From: Archangium violaceum
GTDB taxonomy: Bacteria; Myxococcota; Myxococcia; Myxococcales; Myxococcaceae
DNA length: 64,000 bases
NCBI RefSeq assembly: GCF_016887565.1
Contig: NZ_CP069396.1
Span: 11,452,001-11,516,000 of the forward strand
Direction of reading: 5' to 3'
Each line of letters begins with the position of its first letter. Positions within the stretch are counted from its first letter, which is position 1. The notes beneath the pieces were generated by a model. That model ran no database searches. It was not told the DNA's origin and saw only the letters and a list, made by a program, of their open reading frames with translations. Of this stretch, positions 20,574 through 49,299 are shown in pieces. The translations under genes and the position numbers were made by a program.

Positions 20574-21212
20574 ATGTCCCAGCCCAAACGGATTCGTGCA
20601 GGAATGGTGGTGAAGAGCCGCGCCGGAGAGCCCCTCGGGCGGGTGCTCAGCGTGGATGACGAGGGCTTCGTCCTGGAGCGCAGGGTGGTCATCACCCGGG
20701 AGCACCGGGTACGGCTCGACGAGGTCCACGCGTTGGAGGCCGACGGCGTGGTCATCCACCACGACCGGACGCCCCCGCTCCACGCGGATGCGAAGGACCT
20801 CACCGAGGTCTTCTGGTCCGCCCGGCGCGCACGTGACGAACAGAAGCCCCTGGACGAGCGGGAGACCCGGTGGAGCGGGGTGCCGCAGCGCATCGTCGCG
20901 GTGACCGAGCACGCCGAGGCCTACCCCGTCCAGGTGGAGCGGGGCACCGTCAGCAACCCCCGCTACGTGCCCATGTCCGAGGAGCGGTTGCCCCTGCCCC
21001 CCACTCCGGACGAGGAGGAGCCGCGCCCCTTCCGGAGCCAGGAGGAGACGCCGAGAGCCCCTCCACCGAAGCGCTCGTCACGCTCGCGCTGGAATCGCGG
21101 AGTGCTGCAGCTGACCGAGGGGCTCGTGGCGCGCTACGCCGCCCGGCCCTTCATCGCAGCCACCTCGCTGTTCGAGCGGCTGCGCGGCGCGTGGTCCTTC
21201 GCGGAGCACTGA
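20574..21212 (+). CDS. PRC-barrel/DUF2171-like protein with disordered and C-terminal helical region
   Basis: 212 aa. Residues 5-65 (IRAGMVVKSRAGEPLGRVLSVDDEGFVLER) form the short beta barrel pattern of PRC-barrel/DUF2171 proteins. A Pro/Glu/Arg-rich linker follows, and the C-terminus (about 175-212) is a possible amphipathic helix (FIAATSLFERLRGAW). The paralogous barrels occur in photosynthetic reaction-centre H subunits, RimM and stress proteins, so a specific role cannot be given. It is co-oriented with the 69-aa gene and convergent with the methyltransferase. Confidence 0.65.
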   Translation: MSQPKRIRAGMVVKSRAGEPLGRVLSVDDEGFVLERRVVITREHRVRLDEVHALEADGVVIHHDRTPPLHADAKDLTEVFWSARRARDEQKPLDERETRWSGVPQRIVAVTEHAEAYPVQVERGTVSNPRYVPMSEERLPLPPTPDEEEPRPFRSQEETPRAPPPKRSSRSRWNRGVLQLTEGLVARYAARPFIAATSLFERLRGAWSFAEH

Positions 21213-21218
21213 GCGCCC

Positions 21219-22319
21219 TCAGCCCTCGGATGCGGGGACCGGGCGGCGTCCCACCGCCAGGTCCCTCATCCCGCGCGCGCCGTTGAAGAAGAGGCGGATG
21301 TCCGACAGGCCCGCGGTCCGGAGCATCCCCTCCATCTCCTCCGGCGTGAAGTTGTCGCCCCCCGTGCTGAGCAGCATGAACAGCGACAGGAGCGCGGGCA
21401 GCAACGGCCCCCTCCGCTCGGGATGGAACAGCGTCTCGCTGACGAGCAGCAGCCCCCCCGGACGCAGCAGGGACACCGCCCGGGAGAGGATGCGCGCGCG
21501 CTCCTCCGCCACGAAGTCGCCAATCACTCCCGACAGCAGGAGGGCATCGGCCGGCTCCAGGGTGCCCCCCAGGTCCTCGCGCAGGTCCGCCACCGTGCAG
21601 CGGATGCGGCCGGTGAGCCCGGCACGCGCGATGCGCTCGGCGGCGTACGCCCGCGCGGGCGGCGTGTCGACGAGCTCGATGGACAGGTGCGGCACCGCCT
21701 GGGCCAGCTCGATGGCCACCTGCCCTCCCCCGCCCCCGAGGTCCACCAGCCGGCGCACCCCGGTGAAGTCCACCTGCTCGGCGATGAGCCCGCCCACCCC
21801 ACGGCTCGCGATGTCCATGGCCCGCATGAGGAGCGCGTACTCGTCCGGGTGCCGGGCCAGCTCCGTGTACGCCTCACCGGCATGACGCGCGGGGTCGACG
21901 AAGGGCCAGTGCTCGAACTGGGATTGACCACTTCGCACCGCCGCGCCCAGGTGCGCGAACAGCGAGTCCACGTGACGGCGCTGGTGCTGGAGGAACGGCA
22001 CGAGCGAGTCCTCTCCGTCCGAGGTGAGCACCGCCGCCGCCAGGGGTCCATTGCGGAAGCGCGGGCCCACCTCCTGCTCGACGAGCCCGAGCGCCACCAG
22101 CGCCGTGAGGAGCCGCCTCGCTCCCTCCCCGGAGATACCCGCCCGGGCCGCCAGCTCCTGGGCATCGAGAGGACCCGCGGCCAGGTGGTCGAAGAGCCGC
22201 AGGTCCAGCGCCGCGCCGAGCACCGAGCCCAGTATCGGAGCGCAGGAGAGGAGCTGAAGGGTGGCCGGCGTGCACGGCACCGGCTCGCCTCGAAAGCCGA
22301 GCGTCGCGTCTCCACTCAT
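21219..22319 (-). CDS. O-methyltransferase (plant-type/acetylserotonin family) of the prenyltransferase operon
   Basis: 366 aa. An N-terminal winged-helix dimerisation domain (about 20-90, LFDHLAAGPLDAQELAARAGISGEGARRLLTALVALGLVE) is followed by a class I SAM-binding domain starting VRRLVDLGGGGGQVAIELAQAVP and including LLSGVIGDF and LLRPGGLLLVSE. This is the family 2 O-methyltransferase architecture, common in natural-product tailoring of hydroxyl groups on aromatic compounds; N-methylation is also known. The ATG overlaps the upstream stop by 4 bp (ATGA), so it is the last gene of a tightly coupled three-gene operon. Confidence 0.9.
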   Translation of the reverse strand: MSGDATLGFRGEPVPCTPATLQLLSCAPILGSVLGAALDLRLFDHLAAGPLDAQELAARAGISGEGARRLLTALVALGLVEQEVGPRFRNGPLAAAVLTSDGEDSLVPFLQHQRRHVDSLFAHLGAAVRSGQSQFEHWPFVDPARHAGEAYTELARHPDEYALLMRAMDIASRGVGGLIAEQVDFTGVRRLVDLGGGGGQVAIELAQAVPHLSIELVDTPPARAYAAERIARAGLTGRIRCTVADLREDLGGTLEPADALLLSGVIGDFVAEERARILSRAVSLLRPGGLLLVSETLFHPERRGPLLPALLSLFMLLSTGGDNFTPEEMEGMLRTAGLSDIRLFFNGARGMRDLAVGRRPVPASEG

Positions 22320-23461
22320 CGCCGGGACAGACGTGCGAGCTCGTCGATGACGCGATCGCACTCCTCCTCCGTGTTGCACGGGTGGGGCGAGACGCGGACT
22401 CCCGCCCCCGGCCGGGTGTCGATGTCGATGCCAAGCGCCGCCATCCGCTCGACGAGCACCGCCCCGTCCTCCATGTCGAAGCAGAGCATCCCACCGCGCC
22501 GCTCGGGCTCGCGCGGCGTCTTCACCGGGAGCCCCGCGTCGTGCGCCCGGGCCATCATCCGCGTGGTGAGCGCCACGCTGCGCTCCCTCAGCCGCTCCAC
22601 GCCCGTCTCCAGCACGAAGCGCAGGCCCGCGCGGCCGGTGTAGATGGGCTCGATGGCGGGCGTCCCCTGCTGGAAGCGCGCGCTCCCCGGCGCGGGCTCG
22701 TACGTCTCCGCGAATCCCACCATCTCCCGATGGCCGATCCACCCCGGGAAGGCCGGCTCGAGCCGCTCGGCCAGCGCGGGCCGCACGTACAGGAAGGCCA
22801 GCCCCAGACCGCCGCCTCCCAGCCACTTGTGGGTGCCCCCCACCACGACATCCGCGCCGAGCCGCCGCACGTCCACCGGCACCACGCCCACCGCCTGGTA
22901 CGCGTCCAGCACCACGAGGGCCCCCGCGTCGTGCGCCGCCTTCACCACCGGCGCGACCTCCAGGAGCGCCCCGGTGCGCGGCGACACCAGCGACAGCGCC
23001 ACGATGGCCACCCGCTCGTCCAGGTGCCGCAGCACCTCCTCCGGCCGCAGCAACACCCCGTCCTCCGGCCGCAGCTCCTCGACGGAGAAGCCCCGGCGCG
23101 CCTGCGCGGACCACAGGTAGCGCGAGGAGTGGAAGTCGATGGCGCTATAGAGGATGCGGTGACGCTCCGGACGCGGCGACACCGCGGAGGCGATGGCCGC
23201 CTGCGCCGCGGTGACGCTGTCGCGGAGCGCCACCGAGCCCGGCTCGGCCCCGAGCAGCTGCTCGAGCAGCCGGGAGAACTCGCCCATGCGCTCGATCCAC
23301 ACCGGAAGGGAGCGGTTGCGCAACCCCAGCGTCCGGGCGTACTCGAGCAGGTCCACGTACATCTCCGAGGGCGTGGGGCCGAGGCACTGCGTGGCGAAGT
23401 AGGTGCGCTCGGAGAACAGCGGGAAGCGGGCGCGCAGCGCGGCGAAGTCCGAGGCGCTCAT
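22316..23461 (-). CDS. kynureninase-like PLP-dependent enzyme (aminotransferase class V)
   Basis: 381 aa. Fold type I PLP enzyme: substrate/cofactor strand VVLDAYQAVGVVPVD with Asp186, and the Schiff-base lysine in GGTHKWLGG (Lys212). Several blocks resemble kynureninase more than cysteine desulphurases: GWIGHREM, SARFQQGTPAIEPIY, TPREPERRGGMLCF, and IDTRPGAGVRVSPHP near the end. Kynureninases cleave the side chain of kynurenines to anthranilates plus alanine; class V members also epimerise or eliminate. The exact reaction here is unknown. Both ends overlap neighbours by ATGA, so it is co-translated with the prenyltransferase-oxygenase fusion and the methyltransferase. Confidence 0.88.
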   Translation of the reverse strand: MSASDFAALRARFPLFSERTYFATQCLGPTPSEMYVDLLEYARTLGLRNRSLPVWIERMGEFSRLLEQLLGAEPGSVALRDSVTAAQAAIASAVSPRPERHRILYSAIDFHSSRYLWSAQARRGFSVEELRPEDGVLLRPEEVLRHLDERVAIVALSLVSPRTGALLEVAPVVKAAHDAGALVVLDAYQAVGVVPVDVRRLGADVVVGGTHKWLGGGGLGLAFLYVRPALAERLEPAFPGWIGHREMVGFAETYEPAPGSARFQQGTPAIEPIYTGRAGLRFVLETGVERLRERSVALTTRMMARAHDAGLPVKTPREPERRGGMLCFDMEDGAVLVERMAALGIDIDTRPGAGVRVSPHPCNTEEECDRVIDELARLSRR

Positions 23462-25239
23462 GGGTAGCACTGGCGGTACAGCGCGTCGAAGAAGGCGCGC
23501 GACGCGGTGGCCACCGCCTTCGCGCCACGCCAGGCGGCCTCGCTCGCCGGGCCCGTGGGGATGAGCCGCGCCATGTCCATGGACTCGCTGGCGTGCTCCA
23601 CCTCCAGGTGCTCGTGCAGGTGCAGCCACTCGAGCGCGGAGGGAGGAATCTGCGTCTGGCGGCGGAACTGGTCCGCGACGAACGTGTCCACCTGCTTGCC
23701 GTACACCTCGACCACCAGGCTCGCCCCCACCCCTTCGTAGGGCTCGGCGCTCACGTAGCAGCGCTCCAGCTCCGCGCCGAGCGCGTGACCCGGCGCGAGC
23801 ACCTCCTGTGTCTCCGGTGGCGCCCAGGGCGCGAGCACCTCGAACATCCGCTCGAAGAGTCCCCGGTGGGCGCGCGTGAAGTCGCCATCGCCCAGCTCGT
23901 CGTTGAGCTGCTTCGCCAGCACGCTTCGGATGCGCTCGTCCGTCGCTCGGGCGGTGAGCCACGCCAGCCGGCGAGGAAACTCCCGGGTGATGCCCACGCG
24001 AAAGTTGGCCAGCAGGCGGGCCAGCACCTCCAGGCGCACCGGCTCGCGCTGCATCCGCGTGAAGAACGGGTGGTCCGCCACCGAGTGCGTCTCGAAGTGG
24101 TCGACGATCTCCGTCGCCGGCCGTGCCACCTCCACCGCGGGTGGCTCGCGCGACGGCTGCCGCATCATCCCGTACGTCTCCGGTGAGAAGTAGACCGTCA
24201 CCCGGGGCCGCCCCTGCCACCGCACCGCGGCATAGGTGTGGATGCCCGTACCGGCCTCCAGCGGACGGTGGGCCGAGGCCTCCAGCGCTCCCAGGTACGG
24301 CCCGGTGGCCAGCCCCTGGCTGTCGAGATAGCCGGTGATGCGCTGGCGGATCTCCCGGTCGTCACGCGCGTGGTGCGACATGGGGAAGTACACCGTCACG
24401 GCCTGGGGTCGCGCATCGGAGGGGTCCGTGAAGCTCAGGCATGTCACCAGCCCCTTGCCACCATAGGGGCCCTCGCCGCCACCGGCCATCTGCCGGCAGA
24501 ACTCGGCGGCGACTCCCGGCTGGTGGTGACGCCCCAGCGCGCACACCTCTTCGAGGAACGACGCGGTCGCGCGGTGGTGGCGGAAGTAGAGCTTCGCCCG
24601 GGCATCGGCACGCGGCGACAGGTCGAGCGCGAAGTAGACGGGCTCGTCCATTCCCACCTCGCGGCGCCCCATCACCTCGGCCACCGAGGACCAGGCCGCG
24701 TGGAAGCCGATGCGGTGCAGCGCCTCCTCGGTGAGCCGGGCCGCCCGTCCCGGACCCTGGGCCAGGAGGTTGAAGTACGCCTTGAAGTCCACCGGGTGCC
24801 CCGGGCTGAACGCGGCCGAGTACCACGCGACGAACCGGCCCCGCGCGTCCTCCGGCATCAACAGCCCCTCCAGCGCGCGCAGCCGCTCGAGGTGCAGGCC
24901 CTGGGTCCGCGCGAGTTCCTCGTGCAGGCGCAGGCTCGCGGCGCGGTTGGCGCTCAGCGAGAACGGCGCGTCCATGGGCTCCACCAACACGCGCAGCTGC
25001 GGCCCCTCGGCGTCGATGGCCACCGACAGTTCGAAGGGCGAATGGTCGTCACACACGTCCGAGGGCCAGGGCGGAGCCTCTCCCACCGGCAGCGCGCCCC
25101 AGCTCGAGGCCAGCGTCAGGAAGATGTCCCGCATCGCCTGGGTGGAGGGCTCGTCGAACCCCAGCGCCCGGGCGAGCGCCGTCATCCGTTCACTCCCCGA
25201 GGCGATGAGCGTTCCAGCGAGAAGACCGTGCTCCCGCAT
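23458..25239 (-). CDS. fusion of DMATS-type aromatic prenyltransferase and haem-oxygenase-like diiron enzyme
   Basis: 593 aa. Residues 1-360 show the ABBA prenyltransferase repeats: SPFELSVAID (Glu70, the position of the indole-contacting Glu in DMATS enzymes) and the repeated basic/YF strands VYFALDLS (201-208), AKLYFR (215-220), VTVYFPM (281-287) and RVTVYFSPETY (346-356). Residues 375-593 match the haem-oxygenase-like iron-containing redox fold (PF14518 type). Expected metal ligands are Glu448, His458, Glu511, His542, Glu546 and His549 (HxxxExxH). The start at 25239 follows GAGGAGGAG. Likely role: prenylation of an aromatic amino acid, then iron-dependent oxidation, feeding the two downstream enzymes. 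Confidence 0.82.
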   Translation of the reverse strand: MREHGLLAGTLIASGSERMTALARALGFDEPSTQAMRDIFLTLASSWGALPVGEAPPWPSDVCDDHSPFELSVAIDAEGPQLRVLVEPMDAPFSLSANRAASLRLHEELARTQGLHLERLRALEGLLMPEDARGRFVAWYSAAFSPGHPVDFKAYFNLLAQGPGRAARLTEEALHRIGFHAAWSSVAEVMGRREVGMDEPVYFALDLSPRADARAKLYFRHHRATASFLEEVCALGRHHQPGVAAEFCRQMAGGGEGPYGGKGLVTCLSFTDPSDARPQAVTVYFPMSHHARDDREIRQRITGYLDSQGLATGPYLGALEASAHRPLEAGTGIHTYAAVRWQGRPRVTVYFSPETYGMMRQPSREPPAVEVARPATEIVDHFETHSVADHPFFTRMQREPVRLEVLARLLANFRVGITREFPRRLAWLTARATDERIRSVLAKQLNDELGDGDFTRAHRGLFERMFEVLAPWAPPETQEVLAPGHALGAELERCYVSAEPYEGVGASLVVEVYGKQVDTFVADQFRRQTQIPPSALEWLHLHEHLEVEHASESMDMARLIPTGPASEAAWRGAKAVATASRAFFDALYRQCYP

Positions 25240-25562: not shown

Positions 25563-25625
25563 TCCGGGCGCGGTTTCCGCCAACTGGTCCGACTGTCGGA
25601 CCAGTTGGCGCGAAGCGGGCCCGGA
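25563..25625. repeat. nested palindromic (REP-like) element, copy 1
   Basis: Inner perfect palindrome at 25578-25610: 16-base arms containing AACTGGTCCGAC and its complement around a single central T. Outer arms TCCGGGC (25563-25569) and GCCCGGA (25619-25625). The same core and similar flanks recur at 36502-36564. It begins 5 bp after the stop of the large kinase gene on the minus strand, so it may also serve as its terminator. Confidence 0.7.
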
Positions 25626-48048: not shown

Positions 48049-49299
48049 CTACCCCACGAGAGGCAACGCGAGCGGCACGAGGGCCGTGGGAGGGTCGACC
48101 ATGTGGAGCACGCGCATCATGCGCTGATGAGCATCCGGGTCGTAGGTGGCGCGGAGCGTGACACGGTCGACCAGGAGGCTGCTGAGTGACATGGCGAGGC
48201 GGCGGGTGGCGCTCACGTTCTCCAAAGAGCACCCGGGCACGCGGAGATCCTCACTGGCGGCGGAGAGCCAGGGGCCCTCGACGAGCTCATTGAAGGCCTT
48301 CTGAGAGGTGCGCCCGTCGCGAGCCAGTTGCCGTCCGAGCTCGAGCGCGGACAGCATGCCCACGGTCATGCCCTGCCCATAAACGGGATTGAAGGCGCAC
48401 AGAGCATCCCCGAGCATGACGAGGTTGTCGGCCTGGAGCGACGAGCTCAGGACGCGAGTGCCGGCCATCCTGCGGAAGCAGTGGATGGGACCGAGGAACT
48501 CGGCGTCGGGGAGGACCTGTGCGAGGGCGGGGTCCCGCAAGGAGCGCGCGTAGTCGAGGAAGCCCTCGCGGTCGCCCGGGGGCAGCTCGTTGCCGGAGCC
48601 GACCAGCAGCGCCAGGAACAACCCGTTCTCGATGGGAACGAGCCCGCCGCCGCGGAGGAACCGAGGGGGACACACCTGCACGTAGATCTGCCGGAACGGC
48701 AGCCGCTCGGCGTGGGGGACACGCACCACGCAGGTGGAGTAGCTCGCCCGGGCATCCACCTTCTCGAGCACGGCCTGGGAGCGGAAGGGGCCGTTGCGGC
48801 CCGAGGCATCGACGAAGAGCGAGGCCTCCAGCTCGCGACCATCGCCAGCCTTCACGGCCAGGATGCGGCGCCGCGAGGAGTCCCAGCGGAACGTCCCGGC
48901 CTCGAAGCGCTCGACGAGCTCGATGCGAGGGTTGCTGGCGACGCGAGCACGAACCGTCTTCTCCAGGAGCCCGCGGCTGCACGAGCGCGAGGTGATTTCG
49001 GAGGGAGGACGCGGGAAGGCGCCGAAGCGACCGACCCAGTAGCAACCGGGGCCCCAATCCAGCCACGCGGCGCCGGCGCGGGTCAGGTCGTCGTCGATGC
49101 CCGGGAAGAGCTCGCCGAGCGCCATCCAACCGCGCCGCAGCAACACGTGGACGTGGTCCACCTGGGGCACGCCCCGGCGCGCGTGCTGGACGTCCTGACC
49201 ATCCTTGTCCACCAGCAGGACGCGCTCGAAGTGCCGGGACAGCACGGTCGCCGCCGACAGACCCGCGATCCCACCGCCAATCACCACTGCTCTCGACAT
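48049..49299 (-). CDS. FAD-dependent monooxygenase/epoxidase-like protein
   Basis: 416 aa. Dinucleotide-binding VIGGGIAGLSAA (6-17), the second FAD motif region LFVDASGRNGPF, and the GD motif NLVMLGDALCAFNPVYGQGM (about 297-316) place it among class A flavin monooxygenases. The PVYGQGMTVGMLSALELG pattern is shared with squalene epoxidase-like and polyether-epoxidase-like members. Substrate is unknown. There is no membrane anchor and no reductase neighbour, as expected for single-component enzymes of this class. The ATG at 49299 begins directly at the FAD motif. Confidence 0.88.
   Translation of the reverse strand: MSRAVVIGGGIAGLSAATVLSRHFERVLLVDKDGQDVQHARRGVPQVDHVHVLLRRGWMALGELFPGIDDDLTRAGAAWLDWGPGCYWVGRFGAFPRPPSEITSRSCSRGLLEKTVRARVASNPRIELVERFEAGTFRWDSSRRRILAVKAGDGRELEASLFVDASGRNGPFRSQAVLEKVDARASYSTCVVRVPHAERLPFRQIYVQVCPPRFLRGGGLVPIENGLFLALLVGSGNELPPGDREGFLDYARSLRDPALAQVLPDAEFLGPIHCFRRMAGTRVLSSSLQADNLVMLGDALCAFNPVYGQGMTVGMLSALELGRQLARDGRTSQKAFNELVEGPWLSAASEDLRVPGCSLENVSATRRLAMSLSSLLVDRVTLRATYDPDAHQRMMRVLHMVDPPTALVPLALPLVG

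Follow-up and report, generated by a model that had tools for sequence, protein, structure and literature searches.

A prenyltransferase–diiron enzyme fusion in Archangium violaceum probably opens a small natural-product pathway not described so far

The bacterial prenyltransferases of the dimethylallyltryptophan synthase (DMATS) class with structures in the PDB (6zrx/6zry, CymD 6os3, the 6-DMATS 7w8u and PriB 5inj) are chains of 362-405 residues, too short to hold an extra domain of the haem-oxygenase-like diiron enzyme (HDO) type. A kynureninase and a methyltransferase are paired in the pyrrolobenzodiazepine clusters (SibL), which to our knowledge carry non-ribosomal peptide synthetase (NRPS) genes but lack both DMATS and HDO. 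HDOs with a validated function number only about a dozen, going by the accessible part of the review PMC13108848. The review names AetD and SktA as acting on tryptophan, and in its searchable text the terms 'prenyl' and 'fus' are both absent. Here we describe a three-gene operon in a stretch of 64,000 nucleotides from Archangium violaceum (NZ_CP069396.1, positions 11,452,001 to 11,516,000), called the window below, in which the first gene encodes a DMATS domain fused to an HDO domain. By domain and neighbourhood comparisons, this fusion probably stands at the start of a small natural-product pathway that has so far not been described. The predicted DMATS–HDO protein is a new bifunctional architecture, although every domain comes from a known family.

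The operon has the following features, given in window positions:

25239-23458, minus strand: gene of the DMATS–HDO fusion (P0001), 593 residues, an intact open reading frame (ORF)
24157..25239, minus strand: DMATS-type aromatic prenyltransferase domain of the fusion, residues 1 to ~361
23458..24129, minus strand: HDO domain of the fusion, residues 371-593, including the stop codon
22316..23461, minus strand: gene of a kynureninase-like fold-type I pyridoxal phosphate (PLP) enzyme (P0002), 381 residues
21219..22319, minus strand: gene of a Methyltransf_2-family S-adenosylmethionine-dependent methyltransferase (P0003), 366 residues

Both gene-gene junctions are 4-nt ATGA overlaps, and a Shine-Dalgarno-like GAGGAGG stands ahead of the ATG of the fusion. 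The compact overlapping minus-strand operon of a preliminary description, made from the nucleotide letters, is borne out with exact coordinates. The genome carrying it (G000) is one contig of 13.2 Mb. In G005, a genome of the same genus, the orthologues of the fusion, PLP and methyltransferase genes are 93, 96 and 92% identical and are flanked by the same neighbours, and hence the operon genes are not chance ORFs. Another genome of the genus, G003, has an empty site, where the operon is absent and the flanking kinase lies ~90 bp from the gene at 20604; the 1.5 kb of flank read for G001, G002 and G004 does not include the flanking kinase. Against G005 the fusion has a ratio of non-synonymous to synonymous substitution (dN/dS) of 0.26 and the PLP gene one of 0.16; that of the methyltransferase, 0.33, is slightly above the range of three neighbour genes (0.14, 0.19 and 0.28).

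The full-length fusion is present in four of the 96 family genomes: G000, G005 (93% identical), G111 (72-73%) and G040 (38%). The G111 copy has the same match coordinates (G111:C210) as locus L047 from a Myxococcaceae metagenome-assembled genome, and we took the two as one record, called L047 below. Matches of P0001 at E-values of 1e-12 or lower were found in 10 of 195 phylum genomes, all of the same family. A search of wider genome contigs with P0001 returned one locus only, L047, near relatives of the source genome being possibly excluded there. Against L047 the fusion has a dN/dS of 0.41 and the methyltransferase one of 0.28. By these comparisons the fusion is real and old. It is also the constant part of the system, since the methyltransferase gene accompanies it in three of the four loci and the PLP gene in two. 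The preliminary description had tied its pathway to the N-terminal domain being a prenyltransferase and to neighbours that do not vary randomly; the domain is one by homology, and the partners do vary, yet the fusion and the methyltransferase stay together in those three loci.

Pfam Trp_DMAT (PF11991) matches residues 55-311 of the fusion with an E-value of 3.1e-16 and 60.1 bits (gathering score 25). A phmmer search of the PDB gave 6zrx as the best match to the N-terminal half (E-value 3.1e-47), followed by CymD 6os3 (2.5e-43), with more DMATS chains, a 6-dimethylallyltryptophan synthase and PriB among the further matches. The similarity to these bacterial enzymes extends over residues 16-370 at its widest and includes the DDH(S/T)PxE motif, with DDHSPFE (within residues 63-70) of the fusion aligned to DDHTPVE of 6zrx; we take the Glu of this stretch to be the catalytic base. 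The fusion differs from the class in adding the C-terminal HDO domain.

The C-terminal domain is a diiron-type HDO, as had been proposed. Pfam Haem_oxygenas_2 (PF14518) matches residues 417-578 (E-value 8.8e-16; 58.6 bits against a gathering score of 28.9), and a nine-sequence profile of the fusion HDO (A3) matches CADD (1rcw, 2.5e-14), BesC (7twa, 2.3e-11), HrmI (1.2e-8) and PbrRohS (1.9e-7) in the PDB, together with p-aminobenzoate (pABA) synthases and 3bjd (FlcD). The candidate diiron ligands in the alignment are E448, H458, E511, H542, E546 and H549, with E420 as an auxiliary residue; the column of E511 was judged by eye, because MAFFT misplaced the gap before it. This predicted set of three His and three carboxylates, with H-x3-(D/E)-x2-H, is the E-H-E-H-(D/E)-H motif of HDOs as described in the accessible text of PMC11363339. 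E448-x9-H458, E511 and H542-x3-E546-x2-H549 are conserved in the fusions of G000, G005, L047 and G040. The fusion HDO shares its fold family and its ligands (E, H, E, H-x3-E-x2-H) with the HDO superfamily, i.e. CADD, the pABA synthases, BesC, FlcD, HrmI, RohS and SznF. Unlike these known HDOs, it makes up a separate lineage, which our searches showed in just four genomes of a single family, and has a tethered prenyltransferase, the E-x9-H spacing and the extra Glu420. We rejected it as an orthologue of the tryptophan enzyme AetD, which is absent among the 18 PDB matches of profile A3, and the fusion has E-x9-H and not D-x2-H.

The HDO half might be a scaffold or regulator without catalysis. 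An apparently inactive DMATS-fused HDO fold does exist, six of the seven N-terminal HDO–DMATS fusions of relatives having lost at least two ligands. However, the six ligands are conserved in the lineage of P0001 itself, and the HDO is the best conserved part of the fusion between G000 and L047 (84.5% identity, against 66.6% for the DMATS half). We consider a non-catalytic role very improbable.

Glu420 lies 28 residues ahead of E448 and is a Glu in the aligned fusions of G000, G005 and L047. By alignment its position corresponds to that of the extra iron ligands E189 of SznF and E93 of RohS and of F48 in AetD, which likewise precedes D76 by 28 residues (PMC11611611 and PMC13108848, in their accessible parts). 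The same part of PMC13108848 estimates a fourth carboxylate in about one quarter of HDOs and lists HrmI as an N-oxygenase. These data would suit an HDO that converts the amine of prenyl-tryptophan, or a later arylamine, to a hydroxylamine, oxime or nitro group, with the methyltransferase capping the N-oxygen or another site. Profile A3 matches HrmI and RohS, and RohS is an N-oxygenase as well. On the other side, CADD, the pABA synthases, BesC and FlcD match the profile better, the Glu420 position is a His in the G040 fusion, the geometry of Glu420 is predicted from the alignment, and the corresponding spacing in SznF is 26 and not 28. We regard N-oxygenation as doubtful.

The PLP enzyme was called kynureninase-like in the preliminary description, which holds at the family level. 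Aminotran_5 and KYNU_C (PF22580, E-value 2.5e-12) are matched over their Pfam cut-offs, and the best PDB match is 1qz9 (4.9e-35), the kynureninase of P. fluorescens. It does not hold for a canonical kynureninase: P0002 scores 89-90 bits with the kynureninase model TIGR01814, far under the cut-off of 246.4. P0002 was ruled out as the canonical kynureninase of its genome, in which a genuine one scores 462 bits elsewhere; all six genomes of the genus have a kynureninase of 462-475 bits at another site. The PLP lysine Lys212 and the C-terminal Arg356 are conserved in P0002, while a Cys takes the place of the Ser in the NSLG motif and His211 that of the Tyr preceding the PLP lysine. At the latter position ten aligned relatives of P0002 (L058 being distant) have His or Val, and three relatives have Tyr in their genuine kynureninases. 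Failing the model may still leave P0002 able to cleave kynurenine to anthranilate and alanine. The divergent P0002 family may even serve as the working kynureninase in three of the 20 genomes searched (G058, G062 and G065), because it is the only TIGR01814 match there.

Apart from G000 and G005, relatives of P0002 turned up in 21 of 98 genomes, with identities of 33-41%. Twenty loci were returned, and 18 remain after removal of G000 and G005. A gene similar to tryptophan dioxygenase (TDO; PF03301) lies within 1.5 kb of the relative in 14 of the 18, a Methyltransf_2 gene lies downstream in 11, all three genes are together in 11, and four loci (L031, L032, L035 and L036) have neither neighbour. 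Matches of similar score in G012, G021 and G058 have no locus in this set; G058 has no TDO-like neighbour, and the count with it is 14 of 19. The TDO-like neighbours tie the P0002 family to tryptophan oxidation. An operon of TDO-like, kynureninase-like and Methyltransf_2 genes thus recurs in many myxobacteria (L033, L034 and L037-L045; e.g. L052 8415-11736). Its PLP enzyme is homologous to ours (~36-41% identical) and likewise precedes a methyltransferase, whereas the methyltransferases are only distantly related. Because the TDO-like gene heads the operons of the relatives, the DMATS–HDO gene occupies the dioxygenase slot here.

This arrangement raises the possibility that the HDO is a stand-in for TDO, opening the indole ring of prenyl-tryptophan, after which the PLP enzyme would yield prenyl-anthranilate from prenyl-kynurenine and the methyltransferase would make an ester or N-methyl product. 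The oxygenase, kynureninase-like and methyltransferase logic common with 11 of the 18 loci would favour it, as would the family's possible kynureninase role in the three genomes above. Yet the accessible part of PMC13108848 names no HDO that carries out TDO chemistry, the PLP gene is absent from L047, and P0003 shares only 25-29% identity with the methyltransferases of the TDO operons where the match exceeds 250 residues, with no match at an E-value of 1e-5 in two of the 11 loci. We judge the stand-in for TDO unlikely. Since G000 has its own TDO at C1:455772-456554, kynurenine could also derive from another locus.

P0003 matches Methyltransf_2 (PF00891) with an E-value of 2.2e-25 and 89.7 bits and a dimerisation domain with 50.1 bits, both over the gathering scores. 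Its best PDB matches, at E-values of ~4e-28, are DSYB, an MTHB methyltransferase and ASMT (hydroxyindole O-methyltransferase). SibL (4qvg), a methyltransferase of the same fold acting on a kynurenine, matches at 6.3e-24. The His of the LHDW motif of ASMT is catalytic. In the alignment to ASMT 4a6d this His corresponds to Gly in P0003 (VIGDF) and to Ser in L047 (LSDF), so the usual catalytic His is absent. The earlier name O-methyltransferase therefore stands as a family label and not as an established reaction, the COMT/ASMT-type His being missing.

The pairing of prenyltransferase and HDO goes beyond P0001. We found 18 DMATS matches in 10 genomes of the family, and 15 of them are fused to or overlap an HDO-fold partner, which is an AetD homologue in 11 cases. 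Four have a C-terminal HDO of the P0001 type, two a C-terminal AetD-like domain, two share a 4-nt overlap with a separate AetD-like gene, and an N-terminal AetD-like domain is present in seven (weakly so in L024). No partner was found for two DMATS of G103, a genome with no AetD-like match at an E-value of 1e-8. The AetD-like profile matches AetD at 2e-54. In the six C-terminal or separate AetD-like copies examined, the six metal ligands and Tyr167 are conserved in all and Phe48 in five. Among the seven N-terminal domains, that of L024 retains all metal ligands and the other six lack at least two. The loci concerned are:

L022 9265-11082: DMATS with an N-terminal ligand-poor AetD-like domain
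L023 8955-10784: the same arrangement
L095 7111-8922: the same arrangement
L096 7073-8923: the same arrangement
L097 6325-8190: the same arrangement
L098 7161-8987: the same arrangement
L025 8521-10281 (G000:C1 ~3587.0-3588.8 kb): second DMATS of G000, fused to an AetD-like domain
L026 8835-10661: DMATS fused to or overlapping an AetD homologue, six ligands conserved
L020 8549-10437: the same
L021 8343-10171: the same

This pairing is a theme of the family, and it supports an HDO working on a prenylated amino acid. According to the accessible text of PMC11611611, AetD is a nitrile synthase acting on a substituted L-tryptophan. The DMATS–AetD-like pairs with the six ligands conserved are candidate enzymes for the conversion of prenyl-tryptophan to prenyl-indole-nitrile or skatole-like products. 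At L023 an intact separate AetD-like gene lies 1.3 kb from the fused DMATS, and we speculate that the dead AetD-like domain might recruit the live enzyme. AetD-like genes also occur with no DMATS in the regions read, e.g. at L130, L132, L133 and L134. A protein of ~197-201 residues recurs near AetD-like or DMATS genes (L130 6266-7629, L132 6291-7673, L133, L134, L018, L023, L095 and L097); four copies scanned against NCBIfam and two against Pfam gave no match. It is often near a small protein resembling the PilZ protein at L018 10723-11067, of which only the L018 copy was scanned.

With moderate confidence we read the locus as a dedicated small-molecule operon, in which the bifunctional DMATS–HDO enzyme would act on an aromatic amino acid ahead of a PLP and a methyl step; tryptophan is the likeliest acceptor. 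The DMATS half would add a dimethylallyl or longer prenyl group, and the tethered diiron half would use O2 to oxidise the prenylated product at the amino-acid part or the ring. The kynureninase-like enzyme would then cleave or trim the alpha-amino-acid side chain, and the methyltransferase would cap the product on O, N or C. The TDO and N-oxygenase proposals are sharper versions of this reading.

Several observations weigh against it. The complete three-gene set is present in G000 and G005 only. At L047 the fusion is followed by the methyltransferase gene (80.7% identical) with a 4-nt GTGA overlap and the PLP gene is absent, so the PLP step would be accessory. The G040 fusion (L019 8851-13419) has neither the PLP nor the methyltransferase gene beside it, and in addition carries His in place of the auxiliary Glu420. 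G053 has a DMATS 64% identical with no fused HDO, its AetD-like gene being ~4.5 kb off. Unlike the bacterial DMATS class, P0001 scores under the cut-off of the NCBIfam DMATS model TIGR03429 (128.9 against 163.85 bits), which the G040 fusion clears (166.1 bits). Bacterial DMATS enzymes also accept other acceptors than tryptophan. AlphaFold2 gave no usable model of the HDO domain from two sequences (mean predicted local distance difference test score 37).

The tailoring set around the G040 fusion is a different one, consisting of a cytokinin-dehydrogenase-type flavin (FAD) oxidase and a cytochrome P450, both following the fusion. Another FAD enzyme, encoded at 48049-49299 of the window, matches FAD_binding_3 and, in part, Trp_halogenase; the genes on either side of the L047 fusion operon resemble, in their first residues and their order, those that flank this place in the window.

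Pfam scans of 23 further ORFs of the window (7855 to 49299), part of its genes, gave no NRPS or polyketide synthase (PKS) families, and the earlier remark that none is nearby holds among these neighbours. The gene caller was a simple script that may miss genes, e.g. the uncalled DMATS of L100. One further feature lies upstream of the operon:

25580..25608, strand not applicable: 29-bp perfect palindrome, a dispersed genomic repeat

Its core, TGGTCCGAC-N-GTCGGACCA, has 67 genome sites at up to two mismatches, against two for the reversed control, and we rejected it as an operon-specific operator; the palindrome is probably not specific to this operon.

No published cluster with the same gene set was found, in agreement with the preliminary description, in a search of the open-access literature that left subscription papers and preprints mostly outside and is weak evidence to that extent. 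The accessible part of PMC6226438 reports a conserved indole prenyltransferase in Enhygromyxa salina with rearranged or non-conserved neighbours, so myxobacterial indole prenyltransferase genes exist beyond the matches of our phylum search.

A bolder reading, which we hold to be less likely than not, is that myxobacteria evolved DMATS–diiron HDO tryptophan enzymes at least twice from separate HDO lineages, and that P0001 replaces TDO and opens or N-oxidises prenyl-tryptophan, which would give a new prenylated aromatic scaffold from three genes. Owing to the fusion, what the DMATS half makes is the predicted substrate of the HDO, and the chemistry of the HDO would thus be directly testable with one protein. 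The same logic predicts that the DMATS–AetD-like fusions of these genomes may make prenyl-indole nitriles or related products.

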